From: Erysipelotrichales bacterium
GTDB lineage: Bacteria > Bacillota_I > Bacilli_A > Erysipelotrichales > Erysipelotrichaceae
Reading direction: 5' to 3'
NCBI GenBank assembly: GCA_910576345.1
Contig: CAJTIT010000003.1
Coordinates: 1-64,000 of the forward strand
DNA: 64,000 bases
The position numbers were made by a program, and so were the translations under genes. The notes under the pieces were generated by a model that worked only from the letters and a program-made list of their open reading frames with translations, did no database searches and was not told the DNA's origin. The first letter of the stretch is position 1. Each line of letters starts with the position of its first letter. Shown here piece after piece: positions 17,677 through 55,432 of the stretch.

Positions 17677-18739
17677 ATTCAAATATTAAACGATAACCCG
17701 ATGCAATACCCTCGCTGTTTGTAACTGGTTTGCATTCATATTTATTTGCTTTACCTGCACTAATTGCATTTTGGCCATCGACTGCACATTGATTCATAAC
17801 CGATTCAAACGTATCACCTGGTTGAAAAGGATAAACTTTTTCACTTGCGGTAACCGGGACACTGGATGTAGCAGGCTTTTGATCAGGCACATTATTTTCA
17901 GAATAAATAATAGGTTGTTTAACAACCACAATCATTTTCTTTACAGCTTTGTTACCACTTGAATCTGCTACTGTATAAGTGATCTCTTGTCGCTCTTTAT
18001 TGAAATCAATAGTGTTACAAGTAACTTTATCTGTAATATCGCCATCAACATTGTCAATTACTTTATCTACATAATTTCTGCAAGAAAAGTTTTGGTTCTT
18101 TTCAATGGAAAGAAATTCTTGCTTTAAATAAATCAAAGGTGCTTGTCTATCAATTATTTTTAATTTAAGAGAAGCTTTCATTTCTTTTACTTCATTAGAT
18201 AGTGTGTATTCAAGAACATAACTCCCTATTTTGTCTGTACTAATTTGTGGAAGTTTTAAAGTTCCATTATCTGAACAGAAAATTACATAATCCATGGCAT
18301 TAAATGGTGCCCCTGCCTCCAGTTCAACACTATCTTCAACTTGTAATTGCAGATTTTGTGAATACAAAGAAATTGTGTCTTGATTTACCAAATAAATAAT
18401 CGCTATTGTTGATATTAAAATTATAAGCAATGTCATCCATGTGATATTGATCAACCATTTCCTGCGTACTTTTTCATATTCACATTCATAGATTCCCATC
18501 TCTTTCATAATATGATCCAGTATGTTTTCCATCTGTTCAGCTGGTATCATTGGATCGTTGATGACACTAATATCTACTTGATACGATTTTCCTTTAATCA
18601 GCACCTCGAGTTGATCAGTAGAAAAATTCTCGTTAGCAAATTCACAAACATCTATATCATCATCAATTGCTTTTTTCAGCAATTGCCACTGTTCCGCAGA
18701 AAAAGGAATATCCGCAAATTTTGTATATTTATTTATCAC
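17675..18739 (-). CDS. Membrane-anchored Ig-like (DUF5011-type) ICE protein
   Basis: 354 residues. The cytoplasmic N-terminal about 115 residues are followed by one transmembrane helix (WMTLLIILISTIAIIYLV). The outer part has tandem Ig-like units with the DUF5011 pattern IIDRQAPLIYL...NVDGDITDKVTC...QEITYTVADSSGNKAVKKM, then a Pro/Ser linker and a small C-terminal domain (EKVYPFQPGDTFESVMNQC). It overlaps the next upstream gene by 4 bases (ATGA) and sits between VirD4 and TOPRIM genes, so it is probably an accessory surface part of the transfer machine. Confidence 0.6.
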   Translation of the reverse strand: MINKYTKFADIPFSAEQWQLLKKAIDDDIDVCEFANENFSTDQLEVLIKGKSYQVDISVINDPMIPAEQMENILDHIMKEMGIYECEYEKVRRKWLINITWMTLLIILISTIAIIYLVNQDTISLYSQNLQLQVEDSVELEAGAPFNAMDYVIFCSDNGTLKLPQISTDKIGSYVLEYTLSNEVKEMKASLKLKIIDRQAPLIYLKQEFLSIEKNQNFSCRNYVDKVIDNVDGDITDKVTCNTIDFNKERQEITYTVADSSGNKAVKKMIVVVKQPIIYSENNVPDQKPATSSVPVTASEKVYPFQPGDTFESVMNQCAVDGQNAISAGKANKYECKPVTNSEGIASGYRLIFE

Positions 18740-19776
18740 ATATATTCACTCTCATCTTTTTTATAATTACTCTGTATAATACCGGCTTTAACAAACGTAT
18801 CATAATTCTTATTATCAAGAATAATATCATCCAATTGCGCAGCGTCAAATATCACTTGATTGAAATGTGCATTATACAAAATAGCACCTCTCATATCGCA
18901 ACCTGTAAAATCACACCCAGATAGATCACAGCCCGCAAAGCAACAATTTCTTAAGTCTGAATTGGAAAAGTTAATAAATGATAGATTGTGTTCTTGAAAA
19001 TTGAAGCCTTTAAAATCATAACCTGATAAATCAATACTCTGAATTTCTGCTATCTTCACAGGACTTCCCACTTGTTTTTCATGTTCGATCAGAAGTGCTT
19101 CCAAGGCACTCTCTTCCATATGTTCCAAGTTACGATTGTCCTCAATACTTTCAGATTCTTTCTTAATAAAATAATTTAATTCTGTGGTAATATGATTCAA
19201 AGTCTCTTTCATTTCAAAATTATTTATACCTACTTGAAGCAGTTTTCCAAATGTATGATACACATCAAGCAAATACTTTTTCAAATCATTGTTTTGAATT
19301 TTATTTTCTTCTTCAAATTTTGCAAGCAATGTATAAGATACTAAGCAATTAACAATATGGATACTCTCATAATTGCTTAAGCTGAAATTGGAACGGCTCA
19401 GATCACAATCCGTCATATCCGTTTTTTGAAAATCACATGCAATAAATTCAGACTTAGGAATGCGGCAAGCATTAAATGCATTGTCAATAAAGGTGCAATC
19501 TTGAAATTCAAGTGATACCCCATATATTTGATTAAGAACACAATTATCAAATACACAATTGGAAAAGCTGCATTGACTCATATCACCAACAAACTTGATT
19601 TTCTCAAATATACAATTAGACAAAAATACCTTTTTGATAGGAATGGATAATTCAGCATCCCCAATTTTTATATCGCTTATGATCGTTGTTTCATCACCTT
19701 GCTTAGATGCAAACTGCTCCAATAAATCTTCCAAGTTGGTTTTTTTCGCATTCTTATAAATTTCAGATACTTTCAT
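18736..19776 (-). CDS. Pentapeptide-repeat protein
   Basis: 346 residues with two blocks of A(D/N)LxX-type pentapeptide repeats, about 50-140 (CIFEKIKF, CSFSNCVFDNCVL, CDFQKTDMTDCDLSRSNF) and about 255-330 (YDFKGFNFQ, NFSNSDLRNCCFAGCDLSGC). The two right-handed beta-helices are separated by a helical segment. The role is unknown. Some relatives mimic DNA and protect gyrase, but nothing here shows that. It is directly coupled to VirD4 (4-base gap) and to the next gene (overlap). Confidence 0.85.
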   Translation of the reverse strand: MKVSEIYKNAKKTNLEDLLEQFASKQGDETTIISDIKIGDAELSIPIKKVFLSNCIFEKIKFVGDMSQCSFSNCVFDNCVLNQIYGVSLEFQDCTFIDNAFNACRIPKSEFIACDFQKTDMTDCDLSRSNFSLSNYESIHIVNCLVSYTLLAKFEEENKIQNNDLKKYLLDVYHTFGKLLQVGINNFEMKETLNHITTELNYFIKKESESIEDNRNLEHMEESALEALLIEHEKQVGSPVKIAEIQSIDLSGYDFKGFNFQEHNLSFINFSNSDLRNCCFAGCDLSGCDFTGCDMRGAILYNAHFNQVIFDAAQLDDIILDNKNYDTFVKAGIIQSNYKKDESEYM

Positions 19777-35856: not shown

Positions 35857-38800
35857 TTAATTTATATTTTGTTTTTTACGCTTATATAACAGTAACAATG
35901 CAAATGCACTTATCATACATACAAGCGTATATGACATGATATTGGTATTGTCTCCGGTGCCGATGGTTGGTAAAGGTTGATCCGGGTACACAATAATTCT
36001 TGTCTCTTTGTCACCGGAAACCCAATCTTCATCAATGGTCACTTTTACCACTTCATCAGATAATTCATAACCAACTGGTGCTGATGTCTCTTTGATATAT
36101 ACAGTAGAACCGAATTTAATATCATCAAAATGGGCTATACCATCTTTTCCGGTTTTTACTTCTTTGATTGGCTGTGTGCATTCTGGGTCAGAATACATTG
36201 TAAATCCGGCATACGGAAGTACTGTGTTATTGTCGTAGTAGTCTACCTTTTTGATGTCGATATAAGATTTGATTAAATTATTATCTACATCGATTGTTTC
36301 CACTTGTTCATTTGTTTTTATCATAATTTCAAATACTTCATCATTGAGTTCATAAAAATCTAACGCTTGCTTTTCTCTGATAAAATACGTACCTCTTTCA
36401 AGTTCATCAAAGGCAAGATAACCACTTGCATTAGTTTTACCTGTTCTAATGATATTTTTGAATTCTTTATCAGTCGAAACTTCAAATACGACACCGCCTA
36501 AGAAGTTTTTATCTTCTTCAGACAAAGTTTTAATTGTCTCGTTATTCTTTTGTAAAGCCATTTCCCTACGACTCAAGAATACTTCATCTTTTGTATATTT
36601 TAGGATTTCTATTTTTCCACGGATCAGTTCATTTTCAATCGGTTTGCCTTCATTGATATTTACAGTAAACTCTTTTACTTCTTCACCTTGATATTCGATT
36701 ACAAAATCATATTCGTTTGGATCCAAAACATATTGTTCGTTTGTTTTCAATTCTTTAAAATAATAAGATCCAATTGGAAGATCGTATGTGTTAATCAAAT
36801 GACCGTTTTCATCGATTTTTGAAGTTCCGATCAAAGCATCATGCTTGATTGCGATGTTTCCCATATAGTCATGAATATCAGATCTGGCGTACAGTCCAAA
36901 CACTACATCATCATATGCTTGTTCATTGATGAAGGTTTCTTGTGTTTCCAAGTGTTTGGTTAAATTGATATTCGCCTTTGCGCGTGTATTGTTTATCGTT
37001 ACCAAATTCAATTGAATTTCTTCTTTACCGTTTGGGGTAATTTCAAATTCATACATTGTTTCATCTTTAATGTAGCCAACAGGCACACCGCTTTCATATG
37101 CTTTGTATTTTCCTACCGGTAAAAGCAATGAATCTACTGTATTCCATTCGGATGATAGCTCCGTTACAATATCACCTTTTTTAAAATGCTCGGTTCCATC
37201 CCATGTGGTAATGTCTTCTGCGGCTTCAACAGTTAATATGGATCCCAATAATGAACCTTGCGACCACACCGGATGATGTTCCGTTCCAAATTCCCCTTCC
37301 ACCAGCTCAACATTTTTAAATGATTCTCCTGTTTTGGTAAATTGAACAATACCTTTCACTTGCTTATTGGTAAGATCCAACTTTACAATTTCTACATCAT
37401 TTATCGTTACCTCATAAACGGAAGGATCATATACATAACCATTGATGACCATATCATGATTACCATCGTATTTTTCACGCACATAGTACATGTGATTGGC
37501 TTCTAATTCTTCAAATAAAAGTCGTCCATTTTCATCTGTACTTGATGTTTTGATAATCTCATTAAACTCTGGATCGATTGCCAATTCAAAAGGAACATTG
37601 ACCAAAGGTTTTTCGCTTTCTTCATCCAGCTTATAGATTTCTAAGGATCCACGTTTCAATAGATTATATATAGGTTTTCCTTGATTAACAGATAAGGTTG
37701 TCAGCTGGTCACCTTTGTAAGTAAATTCAAAAGGATATTTGTTTTCATCCAAAACATAATCATCATTTGTGCTTAGTTCTTTGGCATAGTAAGAACCTGC
37801 TTGTGTCAATTGTAAATTGAAATTTCCTGCAGAATTTACAGTACTTAAACCTACCAAGCTGTCTTTCTCTAATCCTGGTACATTTTCCGAATAGAAACCA
37901 AACAATACATCTTTAATGGAACCAGTATTTTCAAAGATAGATTCTTCCATATTTTTCGTGTCCAAAATCAACGCTTTTTGTTTGTCATTTTCTATTTTGA
38001 GTATTTCATCAAATTCAATTTCGTTACCATTTTCATCTAAATAGGTTGGACTAACTACCGCAGTGTCTTGATCTACATAATCAAACCGAAAAGTATAAAC
38101 GGTATCATCAACGACATAACCTTCTTCAGTTTCAATTTCTTGAAGTGTATAAAGATTATTCCCTTCTGTACCAATTGGAAGCAAAGGAGATGCGGTAATG
38201 TTTATGCCGTCTGTGGTCATTGTCGTAACTTGTCTTCCTGCTTTATACCATACCTTACCATCTGCGCCAATAATGTCAGTTTTTGCCTTTATTTCAAAGG
38301 TTACATTAGGAAGTAACCCAGTTTCATATTTTGGCGTATACAAGTCGCCATATTCAGTAGGAGTGCTTTCATAACCTTTGAAAAGCTCCGCTTGTTTGTC
38401 GATTTTTACTTGGCCTTTAACCGGAGCATCATGCATTTCTACCGTAGTTATCAAAGTTTCATCATCTGGACCGAGTTGCTGATGCCAACCACGTGTAATC
38501 GTAAATGGTATTGGTTCTTTATTTAATAAATATCCTTCTGGACTTTCTATTTCTTCGAGTTGATATGTGCCGGCACGTAATGAGAGTTCCAAAAATACAT
38601 AGCCGTCTTCCGTTGTCTCCCATGTGTCTACACGTTCTGGTAACGGATGCCATTGCCAATAGCTAACATATTCTCCTGGTTTGAAATCTGCGGTTCCGGA
38701 TACACATTTCACTTTGAATTTCATTCCAGATAAAGGGACGATATTTTCAGTTTCTGCATCTCGTTTATAAACTGCCAATTTGGTTTTCAAAATATTGTCA

Positions 38801-40554
38801 ATAAAGTATCGATAGGTTTGTGGTTCTCTATCATCTTCAGTTACTTTGACTTCAAAGTCTTCTACCGGATCATGATTGATTGTCGGTGTTTTGGTTTCTC
38901 TGACTATATAAGTACCATAAGGTAATTCAATAGAAGTAGCACTTCCCAATTCATCAGTTACCAATTTGTCATATGTTGGAGAATTATCCCAACCTAAACG
39001 ATTAACATCTGATTTTAATTTCACAGTGAATTCCGCATCTTTTAAAACAATGGATTCGTCATGAATGTTTGGATCTTCCAGTTTTTGAATTCTGAACGCT
39101 TGTTTTTTTAACGGTTCATAAGAAATCATATCTTTGATGATTACAGGAACGTTTTGATTATCGTATAATAGGTCGACATCCAAATTGCCAGCAACCTTAC
39201 ACCCCTCACTAGGTTTAATCTCTTTCCAGTAGTATTTGCCTAGATAATCGACTTCTGCGGTTGTGGTTCCGTTTACGATTGTATGTTGCGATATTTCTTC
39301 ATCTTTTTCGTATACAACGGATCCGTCAGCTGGATCTAGAATGTTCTCTCTTGCATAAAAACCATAAACTGCGCCATCGATTTTGGCATTGCCGACTTTA
39401 TCACCATCGATTACTTTTGTTAAAGTAGATCTACCTGTGACACGTTCATCTACGATTTCTTTATCTACAAATTCTTGGACATTTGTGGATGTATCAACAG
39501 TGAATGGATGTTGTGCTGAATTGATTTGATAATCTTCAGGAGCTAATGTTTCGGTGTAATAGTAATCACCGAATAACAATAGTCCAGATTGCGCAATACC
39601 TTGCTCATTGGATTCGATTGTAGATACCTTTGTGCCATCTGTTTTATAGATGTCATATTTAATTCCAGCTTTTTCAACCACTTTTTGTGATTGCGCATCC
39701 TTTTTCACGATTTGAATTTTTCCGTACTTTTGGACGTTAAATTTTAAGGTTGAAAAGCTAGGATCACTTACCTTACGCAACGGCGAAGTTGATTGTTTTC
39801 CTGGATTAACGTAAACGATATTAGTTCCTTGATCCATATCTGATACATTGTCAAACATAAAATTTACACTATCATTTGCATCTGCATTAGCACGCATATG
39901 AAGTGTATTGTCCCACCAATAAAAACTAAAGCCCTTTTCAGTATAACTCGTACCCATCTTATATCCGTGGGCCTTCATGTATATAGCTAAAACTCCATTC
40001 GTATCTTCTAAATCTACAGTTTCACCTACATTAATTGTAAAAGTTTGTCCAGAAAAGCTCAGTTTTTTGGCATGATTAGCGATTTTATCTTGAATAACCG
40101 CTTTTTTTGCGTTGAAATAGCTAGGGACTTGGCTAAATGACCAACCCCTACGCTCCCAAATCATAATTTGCGTAGTTTGATAGTCCTCGACTGTCTGCGC
40201 GGTTGTCCAATAGCCATAGTAAGCAATCAAGGATAAATCTTTTGCCAATGCACGATCATTCAATTCATTAATTAAGTCCTCTTCTGTTACGGATAAACCA
40301 TTGGTTAGATTTGCCCACGGTTCAATACAGAACACTTTGGTACTGCCTACTGTTAGTATTTCAGCGTTTGAATCAAATCGTTCCCGCATATTACCATTAG
40401 AATTAAGAGCGGTTCCAGTTCCTCTATATGGATGTCCTGGCACAACTTGAATGTTCACATTGACCATTGCCGCAGATACTGGCAGTTGAAAAACGCTGAT
40501 AGCCATAAGTGAACACATAAAAGTAATGAATATTTTTTTAAATATATCTTTCAT
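35857..40554 (-). CDS. Giant LPxTG-type adhesin with thioester and SpaA/Cna-B domains
   Basis: 1565 residues from ATG 40554 (AAGGAACAG site); the longer in-frame start lacks a site. Signal peptide KKIFITFMCSLMAISVF...SAA. The N-terminal TQXA/thioester-type domain has KVFCIEPWANL with YQTTQIMIWERRGW (candidate Cys-Gln thioester). About ten SpaA/Cna-B beta-sandwiches follow (for example QKVVEKAGIKYDIYKTDGT, ITFEIKAKTDI-type cores, YYAKELSTNDDYVLDENKYP and YYFKELKTNEQYVLDPNEY). Many should form Lys-Asn isopeptide bonds. The end is LPTIGTGDN, a helix and KRKKQ, a sortase signal. No sortase gene is in the window, so a host sortase is needed. It likely promotes cell-cell or surface attachment of ICE carriers. 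Confidence 0.9.
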   Translation of the reverse strand: MKDIFKKIFITFMCSLMAISVFQLPVSAAMVNVNIQVVPGHPYRGTGTALNSNGNMRERFDSNAEILTVGSTKVFCIEPWANLTNGLSVTEEDLINELNDRALAKDLSLIAYYGYWTTAQTVEDYQTTQIMIWERRGWSFSQVPSYFNAKKAVIQDKIANHAKKLSFSGQTFTINVGETVDLEDTNGVLAIYMKAHGYKMGTSYTEKGFSFYWWDNTLHMRANADANDSVNFMFDNVSDMDQGTNIVYVNPGKQSTSPLRKVSDPSFSTLKFNVQKYGKIQIVKKDAQSQKVVEKAGIKYDIYKTDGTKVSTIESNEQGIAQSGLLLFGDYYYTETLAPEDYQINSAQHPFTVDTSTNVQEFVDKEIVDERVTGRSTLTKVIDGDKVGNAKIDGAVYGFYARENILDPADGSVVYEKDEEISQHTIVNGTTTAEVDYLGKYYWKEIKPSEGCKVAGNLDVDLLYDNQNVPVIIKDMISYEPLKKQAFRIQKLEDPNIHDESIVLKDAEFTVKLKSDVNRLGWDNSPTYDKLVTDELGSATSIELPYGTYIVRETKTPTINHDPVEDFEVKVTEDDREPQTYRYFIDNILKTKLAVYKRDAETENIVPLSGMKFKVKCVSGTADFKPGEYVSYWQWHPLPERVDTWETTEDGYVFLELSLRAGTYQLEEIESPEGYLLNKEPIPFTITRGWHQQLGPDDETLITTVEMHDAPVKGQVKIDKQAELFKGYESTPTEYGDLYTPKYETGLLPNVTFEIKAKTDIIGADGKVWYKAGRQVTTMTTDGINITASPLLPIGTEGNNLYTLQEIETEEGYVVDDTVYTFRFDYVDQDTAVVSPTYLDENGNEIEFDEILKIENDKQKALILDTKNMEESIFENTGSIKDVLFGFYSENVPGLEKDSLVGLSTVNSAGNFNLQLTQAGSYYAKELSTNDDYVLDENKYPFEFTYKGDQLTTLSVNQGKPIYNLLKRGSLEIYKLDEESEKPLVNVPFELAIDPEFNEIIKTSSTDENGRLLFEELEANHMYYVREKYDGNHDMVINGYVYDPSVYEVTINDVEIVKLDLTNKQVKGIVQFTKTGESFKNVELVEGEFGTEHHPVWSQGSLLGSILTVEAAEDITTWDGTEHFKKGDIVTELSSEWNTVDSLLLPVGKYKAYESGVPVGYIKDETMYEFEITPNGKEEIQLNLVTINNTRAKANINLTKHLETQETFINEQAYDDVVFGLYARSDIHDYMGNIAIKHDALIGTSKIDENGHLINTYDLPIGSYYFKELKTNEQYVLDPNEYDFVIEYQGEEVKEFTVNINEGKPIENELIRGKIEILKYTKDEVFLSRREMALQKNNETIKTLSEEDKNFLGGVVFEVSTDKEFKNIIRTGKTNASGYLAFDELERGTYFIREKQALDFYELNDEVFEIMIKTNEQVETIDVDNNLIKSYIDIKKVDYYDNNTVLPYAGFTMYSDPECTQPIKEVKTGKDGIAHFDDIKFGSTVYIKETSAPVGYELSDEVVKVTIDEDWVSGDKETRIIVYPDQPLPTIGTGDNTNIMSYTLVCMISAFALLLLYKRKKQNIN

Positions 40555-40655
40555 AATCTGTTCCTTTCTTTTTATGATCATAAAAAAAATCGATATTTGC
40601 ATACCGATCAATAAGTAGGAATTATACATTAAAAATGTAACCTTTCAATTAAAAA

Positions 40656-49503: not shown

Positions 49504-49983
49504 TCAATCATTGATATAACAGATTTTTGATAAAAACCTTTTATATTTCCATTCCGCCTCTTCATCAGTAATGTTTTTTTGAATATACTCTGATTCACAC
49601 TCTGCAATACTAGCATAAGCATTAAATTCAATGCGATCGGTTTGACTTTCATAGGTCATGTCAATATCCATACCTTTTTCAGCCTTATTTATCAATTTGA
49701 TAATAAGTTTCTGATTTCTTGTCATTTTCTTCTTGTTAAAAAGTAAAGACGGATTTTTAAACAATAAATTTCGTTTCATTTTTTTGATAATGGATATACA
49801 CTTTCTATATTCATGTTCTGCTTGTTCATCTGTAAAATCTTCTTTTATAAGATATACACAAGGTTTTTCAGATTCAAACTCACACAAAACACTATCATCA
49901 TAACAATTGTATACTACTTTACATAACATGCCGCTATCAAGCATGTGCACCAACTTAATCGCATATAATTGATTTCTTGTCAT
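49504..49983 (-). CDS. Two copies of an uncharacterised RNQLYAIKLVHML-type repeat domain
   Basis: 159 residues from ATG 49983 (AAGGAGG site). Copy 1 runs from MTRNQLYAIKLVHMLDSGML to TDEQAEHEYRKCISIIKKM. Copy 2 runs from MTRNQKLIIKLINKAEKGMD to TDEEAEWKYKRFLSKI. The same unit occurs twice in the protein at 54362. The body between the ends is beta-rich. Unknown function. Confidence 0.6.
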   Translation of the reverse strand: MTRNQLYAIKLVHMLDSGMLCKVVYNCYDDSVLCEFESEKPCVYLIKEDFTDEQAEHEYRKCISIIKKMKRNLLFKNPSLLFNKKKMTRNQKLIIKLINKAEKGMDIDMTYESQTDRIEFNAYASIAECESEYIQKNITDEEAEWKYKRFLSKICYIND

Positions 49984-49996
49984 TTTTAATTCCTCC

Positions 49997-50623
49997 TTAC
50001 TCGTCGTTTTGCATCCCGAACAATACTTTAACCTTCTGTATTTCTTCCAAATATTGCTTTCTGTAAACTTCATTATTTTCGTGCGTTTTCAGTACCGCTT
50101 TTTCAAATTTCTCTAAATTTCCTCTAAAGCAGCCGCACACAATCTGAAGGGATGTGCCATTCGCGATTTTGCCAAAGTAGAATAAAGTTTGAGCTTTTCT
50201 TGATCCAATTTCAGCGGTTCTATACAACATGGGGTTATCTGTATATTTTTGGCAATTTTGGCAATTTTGGCAATTTTGGCAATTTTGGCAAACTTGGCAA
50301 TCTCGGCAATCTCGGCAATCTTCGCAATCTTCGCAAACCCAGCAATTACGGCAATTACGGCAATTATGGCAATTACGGCAATTATCGCAATAATGGCAAT
50401 TATCGCAATTACGGCAATTATCGCAATAATGGCAATTACGGCAATTACGGCAATTATCGCAATAATGGCAATTACGGCAATTACGGCAATTATTGCAATT
50501 ACAGCAATTATCGCAATTATAACAATTAATCATACTGCTGCTTAATTCCTTCGCACGCTCTTTGCTGCAATCATTCCAACGATTGCCATTTTCATCCACC
50601 CAATATCCATCTATCTTTTTCAT
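49997..50623 (-). CDS. Cysteine-ladder repeat protein (about 31 C-x-x triplets)
   Basis: 208 residues from ATG 50623; an upstream ATG overlapping the previous stop is possible. The order is: N-terminus KKIDGYWVDENGNRWNDCSK; about 31 consecutive Cys-x-x triplets (residues about 32-128, mostly NC RN CR NC HY CD with period 6); then a C-terminal domain (SLQIVCGCFRGNLEKFEKAV, YRKQYLEEIQKVKV). That C-terminal domain is, from memory, the kind that follows left-handed beta-helix repeats in phage proteins. A beta-helix with a stacked Cys ladder or a metal-binding rod is plausible. Its role is unknown. Confidence 0.75.
   Translation of the reverse strand: MKKIDGYWVDENGNRWNDCSKERAKELSSSMINCYNCDNCCNCNNCRNCRNCHYCDNCRNCRNCHYCDNCRNCDNCHYCDNCRNCHNCRNCRNCWVCEDCEDCRDCRDCQVCQNCQNCQNCQNCQKYTDNPMLYRTAEIGSRKAQTLFYFGKIANGTSLQIVCGCFRGNLEKFEKAVLKTHENNEVYRKQYLEEIQKVKVLFGMQNDE
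50247..50530. repeat. 9-bp minisatellite inside the cysteine-ladder gene
   Basis: About 31 tandem units of GGCAATTAC and close variants (GGCAATTTT, CGCAATTAT, CGCAATAAT) on the plus strand. Each unit encodes one C-x-x triplet, so unit gain or loss keeps the frame. Confidence 0.95.
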
Positions 50624-50655
50624 TTCCTTGGTTCTCCTCCTTCTGTCGTTGGTCA

Positions 50656-50895
50656 TCACCATTCACTCCAATCTAATCGTTGATCACATCCATCACAATG
50701 TTCCTCTGTGCCATCAAGCACATCACCACAATTCGGACACAAAGGCTCATCGTCATATATCCAATTAGGCTTCTTTGGTGTTGCCTTTTCCATAATGCCC
50801 TTGATCTCATCCACTGCTTCCTGATCAATTTCAACATCAATCATATTCCGATTGATGCGATCTTGTATTTTATCAATCCATTCTTTGGCTTTCAT
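50656..50895 (-). CDS. Small zinc-ribbon ICE protein
   Basis: 79 residues from ATG 50895 (AGGAGG site at spacing 7). The helical N-terminus MKAKEWIDKIQDRINRN is followed by a C-terminal ribbon PLCPNCGDVLDGTEEHCDGC. Unknown role; cotranscribed with SSB. Confidence 0.6.
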   Translation of the reverse strand: MKAKEWIDKIQDRINRNMIDVEIDQEAVDEIKGIMEKATPKKPNWIYDDEPLCPNCGDVLDGTEEHCDGCDQRLDWSEW

Positions 50896-50909
50896 CTGTT
50901 TCCCTCCTA

Positions 50910-51299
50910 TCAAAACGGCAGACTGCCACCATCTACATAATCATCGTATTCGTCGTTTTGCATGGCGGCTTCGCTCTGAGCGTCCTTTTTACTTTCCAAG
51001 AGTTGCACACTATTCGCCACGACTTCAGTCACATAGACACGCTTGCCATCCTTGTCATCGTAGTTTCGCGTTTGTATGCGCCCTTCGATTCCCAATAACG
51101 CACCTTTTCTTACATACTGCGCCATGAAATCAGCCGTTTTGTTCCAAGCGACGCAGTTGATAAAATCAGCATCCTGTCCTTGACTTGGAACTCTGCGATT
51201 GCAGGCAAGTGTGAATGACACAACAGATGTACCATTCTGTGTTTTTCTTAATGCAGGATCTTTTGTGATCCTTCCGACAAGTATCACTTTATTTATCAT
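50910..51299 (-). CDS. ssb: Single-stranded DNA-binding protein
   Basis: 129 residues from ATG 51299 (AGAGGAG site). OB-fold MINKVILVGRITKDPALRKT, VVSFTLACNRRV, ADFINCVAWNKTADFMAQYV, KGALLGIEGRIQTRNYDD, then a tail ending in an acidic tip YDDYVDGGSLPF. This is a canonical SSB, unlike the shorter one at 24092. It likely supports ICE DNA replication or transfer. Confidence 0.92.
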   Translation of the reverse strand: MINKVILVGRITKDPALRKTQNGTSVVSFTLACNRRVPSQGQDADFINCVAWNKTADFMAQYVRKGALLGIEGRIQTRNYDDKDGKRVYVTEVVANSVQLLESKKDAQSEAAMQNDEYDDYVDGGSLPF

Positions 51300-51326
51300 T
51301 AATCTTCTCCTCTCACACATCCAACT

Positions 51327-52241
51327 TTAATTAGATTTTATTGACCTTTTTTTGTATTCATCCCATGTGCAACTTTTAAATGTTGCCTTCATGTTGACCC
51401 ATCGGCAAAAATCTTTAATTTCTTGCGGTTTTTGATAATTGGGATTATTGAAATCTACGTAACCCATTGCAAATGGATTGACTCCTACTTTATCAAGAGT
51501 CATTACTCTTTCTAAATCTTCATCGGTAATATATGGCTTTTGAAATCCAACCAATACATAACAATTTATTTTCCAAGGTTTAATAAACTTTGTAAGAATG
51601 CTTATCCCTTTCAGCACCATGTCTTTATCTTCGTAATTATCATATGCTATATAAATACCTCTGCCTTTAATTTTAATTGTGGACAATGCTTTCGCCATTT
51701 CATCAGTCATAATTCTAAGGTCTAACCCTTGTTGAAATGTTACTGGCTGGTTCCACGAGCGAATTATTTCTATATTCTCTCTCCATGCTGGACAGGCGAA
51801 GAAATTGTTGTCTAAGATCATTATCCATTTTCCTTTATGATTCAATTCAAACGGTTTAGATCGCCTTATCGCTCCCTCTTTTATCGGCACTACACAAAAC
51901 GGACACTTACGAATGCATCCACGGCTCATAAATTGAATGGAGTAATCACAATCTGGATATAAGCTATAATCAAGATCTGTGACTTGTTCGATCGCATCAG
52001 GCAACTTTGATTTCACCTCAATTCCTGTACCACCTCTAATGATTGTTGCTCCAACTGGATAATATCGATAATCAGGACTAAACGTAAATATTTTACTTTC
52101 ATAGAAGATATCCGTATCATACATATCAAACATCGGATCATACCAATCTACATCATCGCCTCGCATTTTATGATACGTAGATATTTTCATAATTGCGAGA
52201 TTTGGTATTTTGGAATCATGCGCTAATAAACGTATTTTCAT
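51327..52241 (-). CDS. Radical SAM protein
   Basis: 304 residues. The 4Fe-4S/SAM motif MSRGCIRKCPFCVVPIKEG (C-x3-C-x2-C) is near residue 110. The N-terminal domain LLAHDSKIPNLAIMKISTYH resembles a degenerate cobalamin-binding fold. The barrel continues with LDNNFFACPAW and FQQGLDLRIMTDEMAKAL. The substrate is unknown. It overlaps the stop of the PAPS-reductase-like gene by 4 bases, so the two are translationally coupled. Confidence 0.85.
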   Translation of the reverse strand: MKIRLLAHDSKIPNLAIMKISTYHKMRGDDVDWYDPMFDMYDTDIFYESKIFTFSPDYRYYPVGATIIRGGTGIEVKSKLPDAIEQVTDLDYSLYPDCDYSIQFMSRGCIRKCPFCVVPIKEGAIRRSKPFELNHKGKWIMILDNNFFACPAWRENIEIIRSWNQPVTFQQGLDLRIMTDEMAKALSTIKIKGRGIYIAYDNYEDKDMVLKGISILTKFIKPWKINCYVLVGFQKPYITDEDLERVMTLDKVGVNPFAMGYVDFNNPNYQKPQEIKDFCRWVNMKATFKSCTWDEYKKRSIKSN

Positions 52242-53125
52242 AACAACCTCATTTGTATAGTTGATTTCAATCTATAATTCAAACGGCGGTACTCTTGATA
52301 TACTGGTTCCCATATAATTTCACATTGCTGATATTCTTCTGGCATTAACGTGAACATAACTTCAAGCTGTTCTTGTAGCCCAAGCGCATACGGACAGCCT
52401 TTGCATCCTGTGCGGTCAAAGTTATATGGCGGATAATATAACTTGCAAAGTTTGATACCTCTTTCTTGGATGTACCATTCTTCCCATTCCTCGCTGACTT
52501 TCAGAAGCGGATGAAATTTCTTTAAGCGCCCGCTTTTATCGGTGATGATACAGGCTTGTATCCTTGCCCTTTGTCCGCCCTCTGATGCCATCATTCCTGT
52601 TATGGCGATTGTCTTACTGTTTGCCTTCATCCAAGTGTTGAAAGGTTCTTTTTTCATCCTACGGCAACACTTGTCGCTTATCTTCAACGTGTTTTTGTCT
52701 GAAAATTGATACCTCAATACTTGAGGACATGGATTTCTGTAATCACCGCTTAAATATCTATTTACAGTCAACCCCATTCCGCTGTTTTGAAACACTCTCA
52801 CGATGTTGGAGTGTTCCTTTGACTTAAACGGATATCCATCCTTTTCAAGCATTTGCTTTATGTTCACCGATGGCTTGATTATTTCAATACGATCATCAGT
52901 GGCCTGTAATTCTTTCACATATGCTTTCACATCGTTATATTCGATGCCTGTGTCGGCATACACTCTTGGAATGTTGTTTCCTGGTAGTGCTTCGTCAATG
53001 AGGTAATGAAGTACTGTGCTATCTTTGCCACCGCTGAAAGAGATATAGAATTTATCTTCGCCATATTTTTTAATCACATCGCGAATTACGTTAATGCGAT
53101 CGAACAAGGTTAGTTCGTTATCCAT
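52238..53125 (-). CDS. PAPS-reductase family ATP-pyrophosphatase with Fe-S cysteines
   Basis: 295 residues from ATG 53125. The PP-loop DKFYISFSGGKDSTVLHYLI is near residue 30. A cysteine pair ISDKCCRRMKKEPF is near 150, and DRTGCKGCPYALGL near 240. The CC...CxxC set matches the iron-sulfur ligands of APS-reductase and DndC-like proteins. It could activate a substrate with ATP for sulfur or electron chemistry. Family knowledge does not give the substrate. Confidence 0.82.
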   Translation of the reverse strand: MDNELTLFDRINVIRDVIKKYGEDKFYISFSGGKDSTVLHYLIDEALPGNNIPRVYADTGIEYNDVKAYVKELQATDDRIEIIKPSVNIKQMLEKDGYPFKSKEHSNIVRVFQNSGMGLTVNRYLSGDYRNPCPQVLRYQFSDKNTLKISDKCCRRMKKEPFNTWMKANSKTIAITGMMASEGGQRARIQACIITDKSGRLKKFHPLLKVSEEWEEWYIQERGIKLCKLYYPPYNFDRTGCKGCPYALGLQEQLEVMFTLMPEEYQQCEIIWEPVYQEYRRLNYRLKSTIQMRLL

Positions 53126-53591
53126 CTGATTCACTTTCCTTCATAAACACTAACCAAAATGTCTTATTTCCTCTGCCTCTGTTTCCTAATATTGGCATTG
53201 CTCCCAATGCTTCAAGTAATTCAGTTTGTTTTATATCGGTTTCATTCCACTTGAAGATCAAAGTACCATACGGTTTTAACACTCTCATGCATTCATCAAA
53301 GCCTTGCCTTAAATACGATTTCCAATCAGCTGGTAATTTCCCATATTTCTTGGCCAACCATGAGGATGCGCCAACTTTCAAAAGATGCGGAGGATCAAAC
53401 ACAACCATGTGATATGAATTATCTAGAATTGGAAAACTTCGGAAATCCCAGCGAGTATCCGGATAGTTTCCAAGTTTTCGATCATCGTACAATGTATCAC
53501 TATAGTCTCTTATATCATTGAAATACACTAAGTTATTTTTATTGAAATAGAACATTCTACTTCCACAACACGCATCTAATATTGGTATCAT
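53118..53591 (-). CDS. SAM-dependent methyltransferase, DNA-MTase-like
   Basis: 157 residues from ATG 53591 (GGAG at spacing 8); an extension to 53723 only overlaps the upstream gene. Motif I is IPILDACCGSRMFYFNKNN and motif IV is MVVFDPPHLLKVGASSW; then ECMRVLKPYGTLIFKWNET. DPPH in place of the usual DPPY recalls amino-methyltransferases. It is coupled to the PAPS-reductase-like gene by overlap. Confidence 0.75.
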   Translation of the reverse strand: MIPILDACCGSRMFYFNKNNLVYFNDIRDYSDTLYDDRKLGNYPDTRWDFRSFPILDNSYHMVVFDPPHLLKVGASSWLAKKYGKLPADWKSYLRQGFDECMRVLKPYGTLIFKWNETDIKQTELLEALGAMPILGNRGRGNKTFWLVFMKESESDG

Positions 53592-54361: not shown

Positions 54362-55432
54362 TTATCTCTCCTTCCTTAAGTATACGACAGCGAAGTTAAT
54401 TGCTTCATTAAGTTCAGCATATCTATTATGATGCAATATCTGTAGATAGAAATCAGAAATGGAGCCTGTAAAGTTTTCAAAATTAACCATAATGCCTGGT
54501 TCAAATGTTTTATAAAATGTCAATGCACTGTCATTGTCACCAATATGTTCAAACTTAATATAATCTCTAAAAGATGTTATATATGCACGTTTACCAATAT
54601 TTGCTCCTTCAACGATATCTCCTATGATTGCATCATCGGTTATGACAGACTCATATGCTACAACACCATCTCGCCTTATAACTGAATGACCTTGAACAAT
54701 CCCATCTAGTACATATCCGTTGTCTTTTACTGTAGCATGTTCTTTGATCAGACTGTTGTTTGCAACAACTCCGTCATCACATACGAACGCTCCATCCATA
54801 ACCATCCCGTGATCATAAATCCATGAATGATTATCATGAGAAAGATTGCGTTCAGATTCTATATAGCCGCCTAGATCTCCGACTTCAACTGCTGCATAAG
54901 CGTTGATAAAAGATTTTAATGCCCTTATACGATGAAGTGTTTTATTATCCACAACAATGGTTTCATCCGTTAATTCATATTTCTTATCTTTCATTTCCTT
55001 ATTGATGATCGATAAACAATTTTTATATGCATTTTCTGCTTCTTCATTGGAGAAATTATGAAATATAGCAATACTATCATATTGACCATCAACACAATAA
55101 CGATGATCAAACGTTGTAAGATCCTCGGCACTGTTATAAATCACTTCATTGCACATACCGTTTTCAAGCATGTGCACTAACTTAATCGCATATAGTTGAT
55201 TTCTAGACAATTTCCCATTTCTTTTTCTGCTTTCGATGACTGCCTTACACCTTTTGTATTTTTCTTCCGCTTCTTCATCGGACAAGTCTTCAATAATAAG
55301 ATTGTCCTGATAACCTTCATAGTCATACCATAAGCAAAATGAGTCATCTCCAGAACGATAACAAACAGATATATCAGTTCCATTTCCAATCATACCTAAC
55401 AAATCAATTGCATATTCTTGAACCTTTGTCAT
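54362..55432 (-). CDS. Repeat-domain plus left-handed beta-helix protein
   Basis: 356 residues. Residues 1-75 and 76-150 are two copies of the RNQLYAIKLVHML-type unit also found at 49504. Residues 165-330 are a hexapeptide beta-helix (HRIRALKSFINAYAAVEVGD, GGYIESERNLSHDNHSWIYD, GMVMDGAFVCDDGVVANNSL). That second part is a phage-type beta-helix known to me from phage genomes. The function is unknown. It is the first gene behind structured leader copy 2. Confidence 0.7.
   Translation of the reverse strand: MTKVQEYAIDLLGMIGNGTDISVCYRSGDDSFCLWYDYEGYQDNLIIEDLSDEEAEEKYKRCKAVIESRKRNGKLSRNQLYAIKLVHMLENGMCNEVIYNSAEDLTTFDHRYCVDGQYDSIAIFHNFSNEEAENAYKNCLSIINKEMKDKKYELTDETIVVDNKTLHRIRALKSFINAYAAVEVGDLGGYIESERNLSHDNHSWIYDHGMVMDGAFVCDDGVVANNSLIKEHATVKDNGYVLDGIVQGHSVIRRDGVVAYESVITDDAIIGDIVEGANIGKRAYITSFRDYIKFEHIGDNDSALTFYKTFEPGIMVNFENFTGSISDFYLQILHHNRYAELNEAINFAVVYLRKER

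Follow-up and report, generated by a model that had tools for sequence, protein, structure and literature searches.

A cysteine-ladder protein of phages and conjugative elements, most likely a thin beta-solenoid of variable length

The beetle antifreeze protein TmAFP (PDB 1EZG) folds as a right-handed coil with 12 residues per turn, in which successive residues run out-in-out-out and C2, S5, C8 and A11 face inward (PMC8038014). Every third residue of its sequence reads CSCACSCA. Pentapeptide repeat proteins (PF00805) form a beta-solenoid from a five-residue repeat with a core of leucine or phenylalanine plus alanine, and the left-handed beta-helix of the YdcK/hexapeptide type (PF18836, phrog_7964 and phrog_5070) has a six-residue repeat and a hydrophobic core. 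The metallothioneins are small, very cysteine-rich proteins with CxxC spacing. The PHROGs entry phrog_15341 is a sequence cluster alone, and records neither fold, function nor the exchange of C-terminal domains.

The protein described here is encoded within the window, the whole stretch of DNA that was analysed (64,000 nucleotides of contig CAJTIT010000003.1 from an Erysipelotrichales bacterium, positions 1 to 64,000; the host is a gut bacterium). It is based upon a long ladder of Cys-x-x triplets. Like the metallothioneins it is small and very rich in cysteine with CxxC spacing, but it differs from them in its strict period of three, its long unbroken array, its two folded caps and the absence of a Pfam match. 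With pentapeptide repeat proteins it shares a position ahead of the same C-terminal domains. The same is true of the YdcK/hexapeptide proteins, a relative of which lies in the same element (54362-55432). In the reading proposed below it would also share with TmAFP a narrow, cysteine-rich core, a 12-residue coil and an inward orientation of every third residue. In TmAFP only two of the four inward positions are cysteine (C-S-C-A), compared with all four in the proposed ladder; TmAFP is moreover secreted and disulfide bonded, and there is no sign of common descent. The evidence suggests that the cysteine ladder belongs with the beta-solenoid proteins. A literature search that covered few subscription papers found no published description of the family, which is apparently common in phages and conjugative elements and undescribed.

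Anatomy of the ladder gene and its family

The components of the gene are itemized below.

49997-50662, minus strand: full cysteine-ladder open reading frame, 221 aa
50525..50623, minus strand: N-terminal cap (MKKIDGYWVDENGNRWNDCSKERAKELSSSMIN) including the start codon, from homologues and an AF2 pLDDT of about 85-91 for residues 1-30
50247..50524, minus strand: Cys-x-x ladder of 31 triplets from 9-bp units, with 13 distinct 9-mers, from repeat analysis and a low-confidence AF2 solenoid of 12-residue spacing
50000..50246, minus strand: C-terminal 'IGSR...CGCFxG' domain, beta-beta-beta-alpha-alpha, from phrog_20532 (E = 4.5e-10), domain alignment and AF2 pLDDT of 83-95
49997..49999, minus strand: stop codon; the segment in common with the prophage copy (see below) stops about here

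The ATG at 50623 is likely to be the start of the gene, because it is preceded by AAGGAGG and because homologues with unrelated upstream DNA start at the same MKKIDGYW. This preferred start gives a gene at 49997-50623 (minus strand) encoding 208 aa. The cap contains the motif W/Y-x-D-x-N-N-x-W, which is common to most ladder proteins. From here the chain continues as 31 consecutive C-x-x triplets without a break, with 32 cysteines in 93 residues, making exact the count of about 31 triplets and 32 cysteines in under 100 residues given in a preliminary description of this DNA. The cysteine is mostly preceded by D, N, G, S or Y. Residues at the position after it are more varied, S and R being the commonest. 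After the ladder the strand enters the C-terminal domain of ∼82 residues, which reads IGSR...QIVCGCFRGNLEKFEKAV...H..N..Y...Y.

Tandem Repeats Finder gives a 9-bp unit in 31.0 copies with 83% matches and 0 indels, as anticipated from the minisatellite origin proposed in the preliminary description. It also finds a second period of 36 bp (12 residues) in 7.5 copies over the same array. The basic period is one of three residues, and the repeat of higher order here spans 12 residues, not six as had been thought. The pattern TGY-N6 repeated 11 times has 21 overlapping matches in the window, all of them inside the ladder array, and 0 in 100 dinucleotide shuffles; this test, together with the constraint on the cysteine codons discussed below, rules out an artefact or a chance origin of the ladder. 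Open reading frames on the plus strand over the array were rejected as genes, and are antisense by-products of the repeat.

The ladder protein has no Pfam match up to E = 1, and hence none to PF00805, hexapeptide or metallothionein families. It matches nothing in NCBIfam and no defence family in PADLOC, and, as regards the hexapeptide/YdcK type, has only two weak PHROGs matches. Two profiles of PHROGs v4 cover the protein, with phrog_15341 matching the N-cap plus ladder (E = 8.3e-30, residues 14-183) and phrog_20532 matching the C-terminal domain (E = 4.5e-10, residues 147-220). Both are annotated as unknown function. The former also matches the proteins of loci L079 and L054 and a Campylobacter phage protein. 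The cysteine ladder is a real protein family, present in databases as unknown function only.

Ladder proteins occur in integrative conjugative elements, prophages and lytic phages, spread over unrelated phages and hosts; a search for homologues in phages and conjugative elements had been suggested in the preliminary description. Scanning of viral contigs for the ladder codon pattern gave many chance simple repeats among the matches, together with dozens of genuine ladder proteins carrying the W/Y-x-D-x-N-N-x-W cap. Many of the pattern matches in bacterial genomes are likewise simple repeats outside genuine ladder genes. The ladder phages that have a name are Campylobacter Firehammerviruses, in whose genomes the gene sits between those for portal and DNA ligase; Helicobacter and other genomes also carry a ladder gene. 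Two to four successive ladder genes are present in contigs L014, L037, L038, L076 and L122. The viral ladder proteins terminate in the IGSR/CGCF domain, a WHTCETTHCRAGW domain, a short RPEIDINDRRLEIEL-type tail, a MSEKMIFCLGEG domain, or little.

Exchange with known solenoids and the predicted fold

The IGSR/CGCF domain sits after a cysteine ladder in most of the loci that have it. It is also found after a pentapeptide region in Listeria phage LWP01 (PF00805, E = 3.9e-6), after YdcK-type repeats in Bacteroides phage BF766P1 (PF18836, E = 2.9e-15), and after YdcK-type hexapeptide regions in MA9V-1, ctn9Y15, L201 and L202. The likeness of this domain to one that follows beta-helix repeats in phage proteins, noted in the preliminary description, is thus borne out. 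The WHTCETTHCRAGW domain is unrelated to the IGSR/CGCF domain. Of 80 viral loci, 72 have it behind a cysteine ladder, and in L407, L408, L410 and the Bordetella plasmid pA it lies behind pentapeptide repeats. In this plasmid, from Bordetella bronchiseptica (L332), the pentapeptide solenoid ahead of the phage domain is a long one.

The most likely structure of the ladder is a minimal beta-solenoid with four triplets (12 residues) per turn and all cysteines inside. This reading is based upon the exchange of domains, the register of 1EZG and two signals of a 12-residue turn, and the stacked-cysteine beta-helix proposed earlier is the best structural reading of the protein. The C-x-x register agrees with the CSCACSCA column of 1EZG, by which the cysteines of the ladder would point inward. 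For each of two different ladders 1EZG is the top match in the PDB. The phmmer E is 0.01 and the bias exceeds the score, so the match is driven by composition and is not evidence of descent.

AlphaFold was run with 7 and with 28 sequences. The caps are better modelled than the ladder, and with 28 sequences they are confident. The ladder has a low pLDDT (about 36-65), and in two models the autocorrelation of its strand assignment is best at 12 residues (0.88 and 0.75, at this low pLDDT), a spacing that could be biased by the 12-residue DNA period of the window ladder. The check by structure prediction that had been suggested thus returns confident caps and a low-confidence ladder solenoid. In each of two separate sets, aromatic residues before the cysteine recur at a distance of four triplets (z = 4.0 and 4.7). 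After removal of local duplications the peak is still at four, and the signal is modest (z = 2.9 and 1.1). A turn of nine residues (three triplets) is disfavoured, as an aromatic lag of three is not enriched, and is depleted once duplicates are removed. There is no higher-order repeat general to all ladders; none is present in the Campylobacter or L038-type sets. We infer the 12-residue turn and the inward cysteines. Points against the solenoid are that it has no solved homologue, that the match to 1EZG arises from composition, and that conservation of cysteine only is stricter than a packed core usually needs.

The C-terminal domain is confidently modelled (AF2, residues 126-208). It has no match in the PDB by sequence. 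Foldseek against the PDB gives nothing at E ≤ 0.001. The best VIA-align scores are Z = 5.5 (PURA) and 4.9 and 4.5 (SsgB/SsgA-like), all below the level separating common arrangements, so that the model may weakly resemble the PUR and SsgB-like folds. Comparison with viral models using Foldseek gives YdcK, pentapeptide and Campylobacter IBB35 proteins at E around 1e-3 to 1e-2, in agreement with the sequence evidence on the solenoid partners.

Variation in length and surface

The genome contains one further ladder gene, located in a prophage. Its neighbours, read from translations, are YqaJ/RecT-like, terminase-like and portal-like open reading frames. The conjugative element and the prophage have in common a segment of ∼1.3 kb (window 51328..49988, minus strand; prophage G000:C4, L145:9021-10374), with unrelated DNA starting at either end. 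Upstream of the ladder it contains two genes.

50910..51320, minus strand: ssb (single-strand DNA-binding protein; PF00436, E = 2.1e-36), the first gene of the shared segment
50656..50913, minus strand: small zinc-ribbon-like protein, directly upstream of the ladder gene

The DNA identity between the two copies is 96.4% for ssb, 100% for the zinc ribbon, 97.8% for the N-cap and 99.2% for the C-terminal domain, compared with 84.5% plus 27 gap columns for the ladder. The prophage ladder is longer by three units. Nine 9-mers are common to the two ladders and the others are private to one copy, and therefore reordering and point change have both acted. The total charge is 0 for the window ladder and −12 for that of the prophage.

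At a single locus in Campylobacter phages the number of units ranges from about 6 to 66. The approximate counts are 43 in CP21, 27 in CP220, 63 in WX1, 66 in CC_R7, 43 in F379 and 45 in IBB_35, part of which could be assembly error in repeats. In four of the 11 Campylobacter phage records (CPt10, CP20, CJLB-12 and CJLB-14; L148, L149, L151 and L152) early stops or a frameshift break the reading frame, and here again assembly error could contribute; the ladder gene may thus be dispensable in culture. Among viral loci with near-identical caps the unit numbers are 32/22/32, 18/31/34, 27/28 and 24/14, and where such pairs are equal in length their units are altered or reordered. In L194 both caps are kept and the ladder is reduced to a single cysteine, so the rod may be dispensable. 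The expectation that units could change in number without frameshift and give length variants therefore holds, both between the two copies in this genome and between phage isolates and loci. Decayed homologues, which according to the preliminary description would, together with absence from proteomes, speak against its reading, are not the rule, though they include the four disrupted Campylobacter phage copies.

In two pairs of Campylobacter phages the cysteine codons differ by 26 synonymous and 4 nonsynonymous changes, compared with 21 synonymous and 48 nonsynonymous changes at the other codons. In the set with the WHTCETTHCRAGW domain the in-phase cysteine is replaced at 5 of 1776 positions. 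The ladder of F379 has 38 distinct 9-mers in its 43 units. From the synonymous excess and the rarity of replacement, cysteine is held by selection, and the other two positions of the triplet and the number of units are free.

Proposed role, competing readings and genetic context

We consider that the ladder protein is a cytoplasmic protein of mobile elements (probability about 0.55), in which an N-cap is followed by a cysteine-core solenoid of 12-residue turns and a C-terminal binding or effector domain, with rod length and surface shifting by unit shuffling and with an accessory scaffold role. The four inward positions of each turn would all be cysteine, and the surface would be formed by the other two residues of each triplet, which would face outward. 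The N, D, G or S that mostly precedes each cysteine would turn the chain, while almost anything could follow it. Slippage and unequal recombination would add, remove and reorder equivalent 9-bp units without frameshift. As the units are equivalent and 9 bp in length, with cysteine alone held fixed, rod length and surface would change fast between near-identical caps. A fixed core with a rapidly changing outside points to a scaffold of variable surface, an accessory rod that may offer this surface to a target in the host or to some other protein, for example in counter-defence or in takeover of the host. Parts of the proposal that we infer are the process of mutation, the location in the cytoplasm and the role as an accessory binding or host-takeover scaffold. 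The gene itself is accessory, since it is exchanged as a cassette, duplicated, and lost in some phages. If correct, the proposal gives a natural solenoid core that is unusually narrow and regular, with four cysteines per turn, and a simple scaffold extendable at 9 bp per unit. It would be a natural case of a protein whose core residues stay fixed as unit shuffling alters its length and surface, and would offer a way into the role of two phage domains repeatedly placed behind a solenoid.

The inward thiol layers might instead bind zinc, copper(I) or iron, with the metal either holding the fold in the reducing cytoplasm or providing the function (storage, buffering or electron transfer). A narrow core with four uniformly spaced thiols per turn would be suited to metal, and the cysteine is almost never replaced though its neighbours vary freely. 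However, the C-terminal domains that follow ladders are also found behind pentapeptide and hexapeptide solenoids, and since these hydrophobic-core structures replace the ladder ahead of the domains, metal is probably not needed for the work of the domains. The replacements of cysteine in clearly genuine ladders, tiny in number, are mostly Ser, Leu, Phe and Tyr rather than His, Asp or Glu, and Pfam gives no match to metallothionein or any other metal family. We regard such a metal-thiolate rod as unlikely. A metal or redox function of the ladder is possible, with the strict conservation of cysteine in its favour and the interchange with hydrophobic solenoids against its being essential. It is highly doubtful that continuous four-thiol layers hold metal or redox centres along the axis of a length-variable phage rod, as an extendable thiolate wire or metal store with its surface diversified by repeat shuffling.

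The register shared with 1EZG, where inward cysteines form disulfides (PMC8038014), also raises the possibility of a disulfide-stabilised rod like that of the beetle protein, in which cysteines would pair across the core once oxidised, for example after lysis or on the virion. The position of the Campylobacter phage gene between those for portal and DNA ligase is in keeping with this. Yet the caps have no signal peptide apparent by eye, the window and prophage genes adjoin ssb among replication and modification genes, and no evidence places the protein on the virion; such a rod seems quite improbable. Most improbable is a selfish or neutral minisatellite that grows by slippage in a dispensable gene, without specific fold or role. 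The shuffling of units, the four disrupted Campylobacter phage copies and the single ladder cysteine of L194 would be expected from it, but the synonymous excess at cysteine codons already disfavours it, purifying selection keeping the cysteine amid the divergent 9-mers of F379. The caps are moreover conserved, the family is spread over unrelated phages and hosts, and two domains have been fused in parallel both to ladders and to solenoids of other kinds.

The window carries an integrative conjugative element with a serine recombinase, a MobL relaxase, a TrbL-like protein, a VirB4-like ATPase, ParA and ParB, and a type IV secretion coupling protein (PF02534, E = 1.1e-48). The ladder closes a run of genes in the order methyltransferase, PAPS-reductase-like, radical SAM, ssb, zinc ribbon, ladder. 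Within the genus of the window the ladder gene is accompanied by ssb and by genes of replication or modification. The hexapeptide counterpart in Streptococcus thermophilus phage SFi18, gp229, is directly before helicase and primase genes. A general linkage of ladder genes to ssb is not supported (2 of 49 viral loci). Nor is DNA mimicry by charge supported as a general rule, as the net charge per triplet ranges from −0.89 to +0.22 and the totals of the window and prophage ladders differ as given above. Two further genes of the element are related to each other.

49504..49983, minus strand: gene downstream of the ladder with two copies of a small domain (BLASTP E = 3e-23 to the 54362-55432 protein)
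54362..55432, minus strand: second solenoid protein, comprising an N-terminal double domain, a YdcK/hexapeptide-type region and a degenerate relative of the C-terminal domain (phrog_5070, E = 7e-32)

The C-terminus of the second solenoid protein has a weak likeness to the alignment of the ladder protein's C-terminal domain (hhalign E = 4e-4, probability 34%). Both the 49504-49983 gene and, ∼4 kb upstream, the N-terminal part of the 54362-55432 protein contain two copies of the small domain, which forms a link between the element's two solenoid proteins. A pentapeptide-repeat protein (18736-19776, minus strand; PF00805, E = 3.8e-19) adjoins the gene for the conjugative coupling protein. The PAPS-reductase-like protein (52238-53134, minus strand) matches BrxP and SspD, and weakly DndC models. 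Its gene adjoins those for a phage radical SAM protein (phrog_9298, E = 1e-87) and an orphan DNA methyltransferase, and the neighbourhood is possibly one of DNA modification. At 35857-40629 (minus strand) the window encodes a 1590-aa surface protein with ten SpaA-type domains, which is likely to be a cargo adhesin or pilin of the element.
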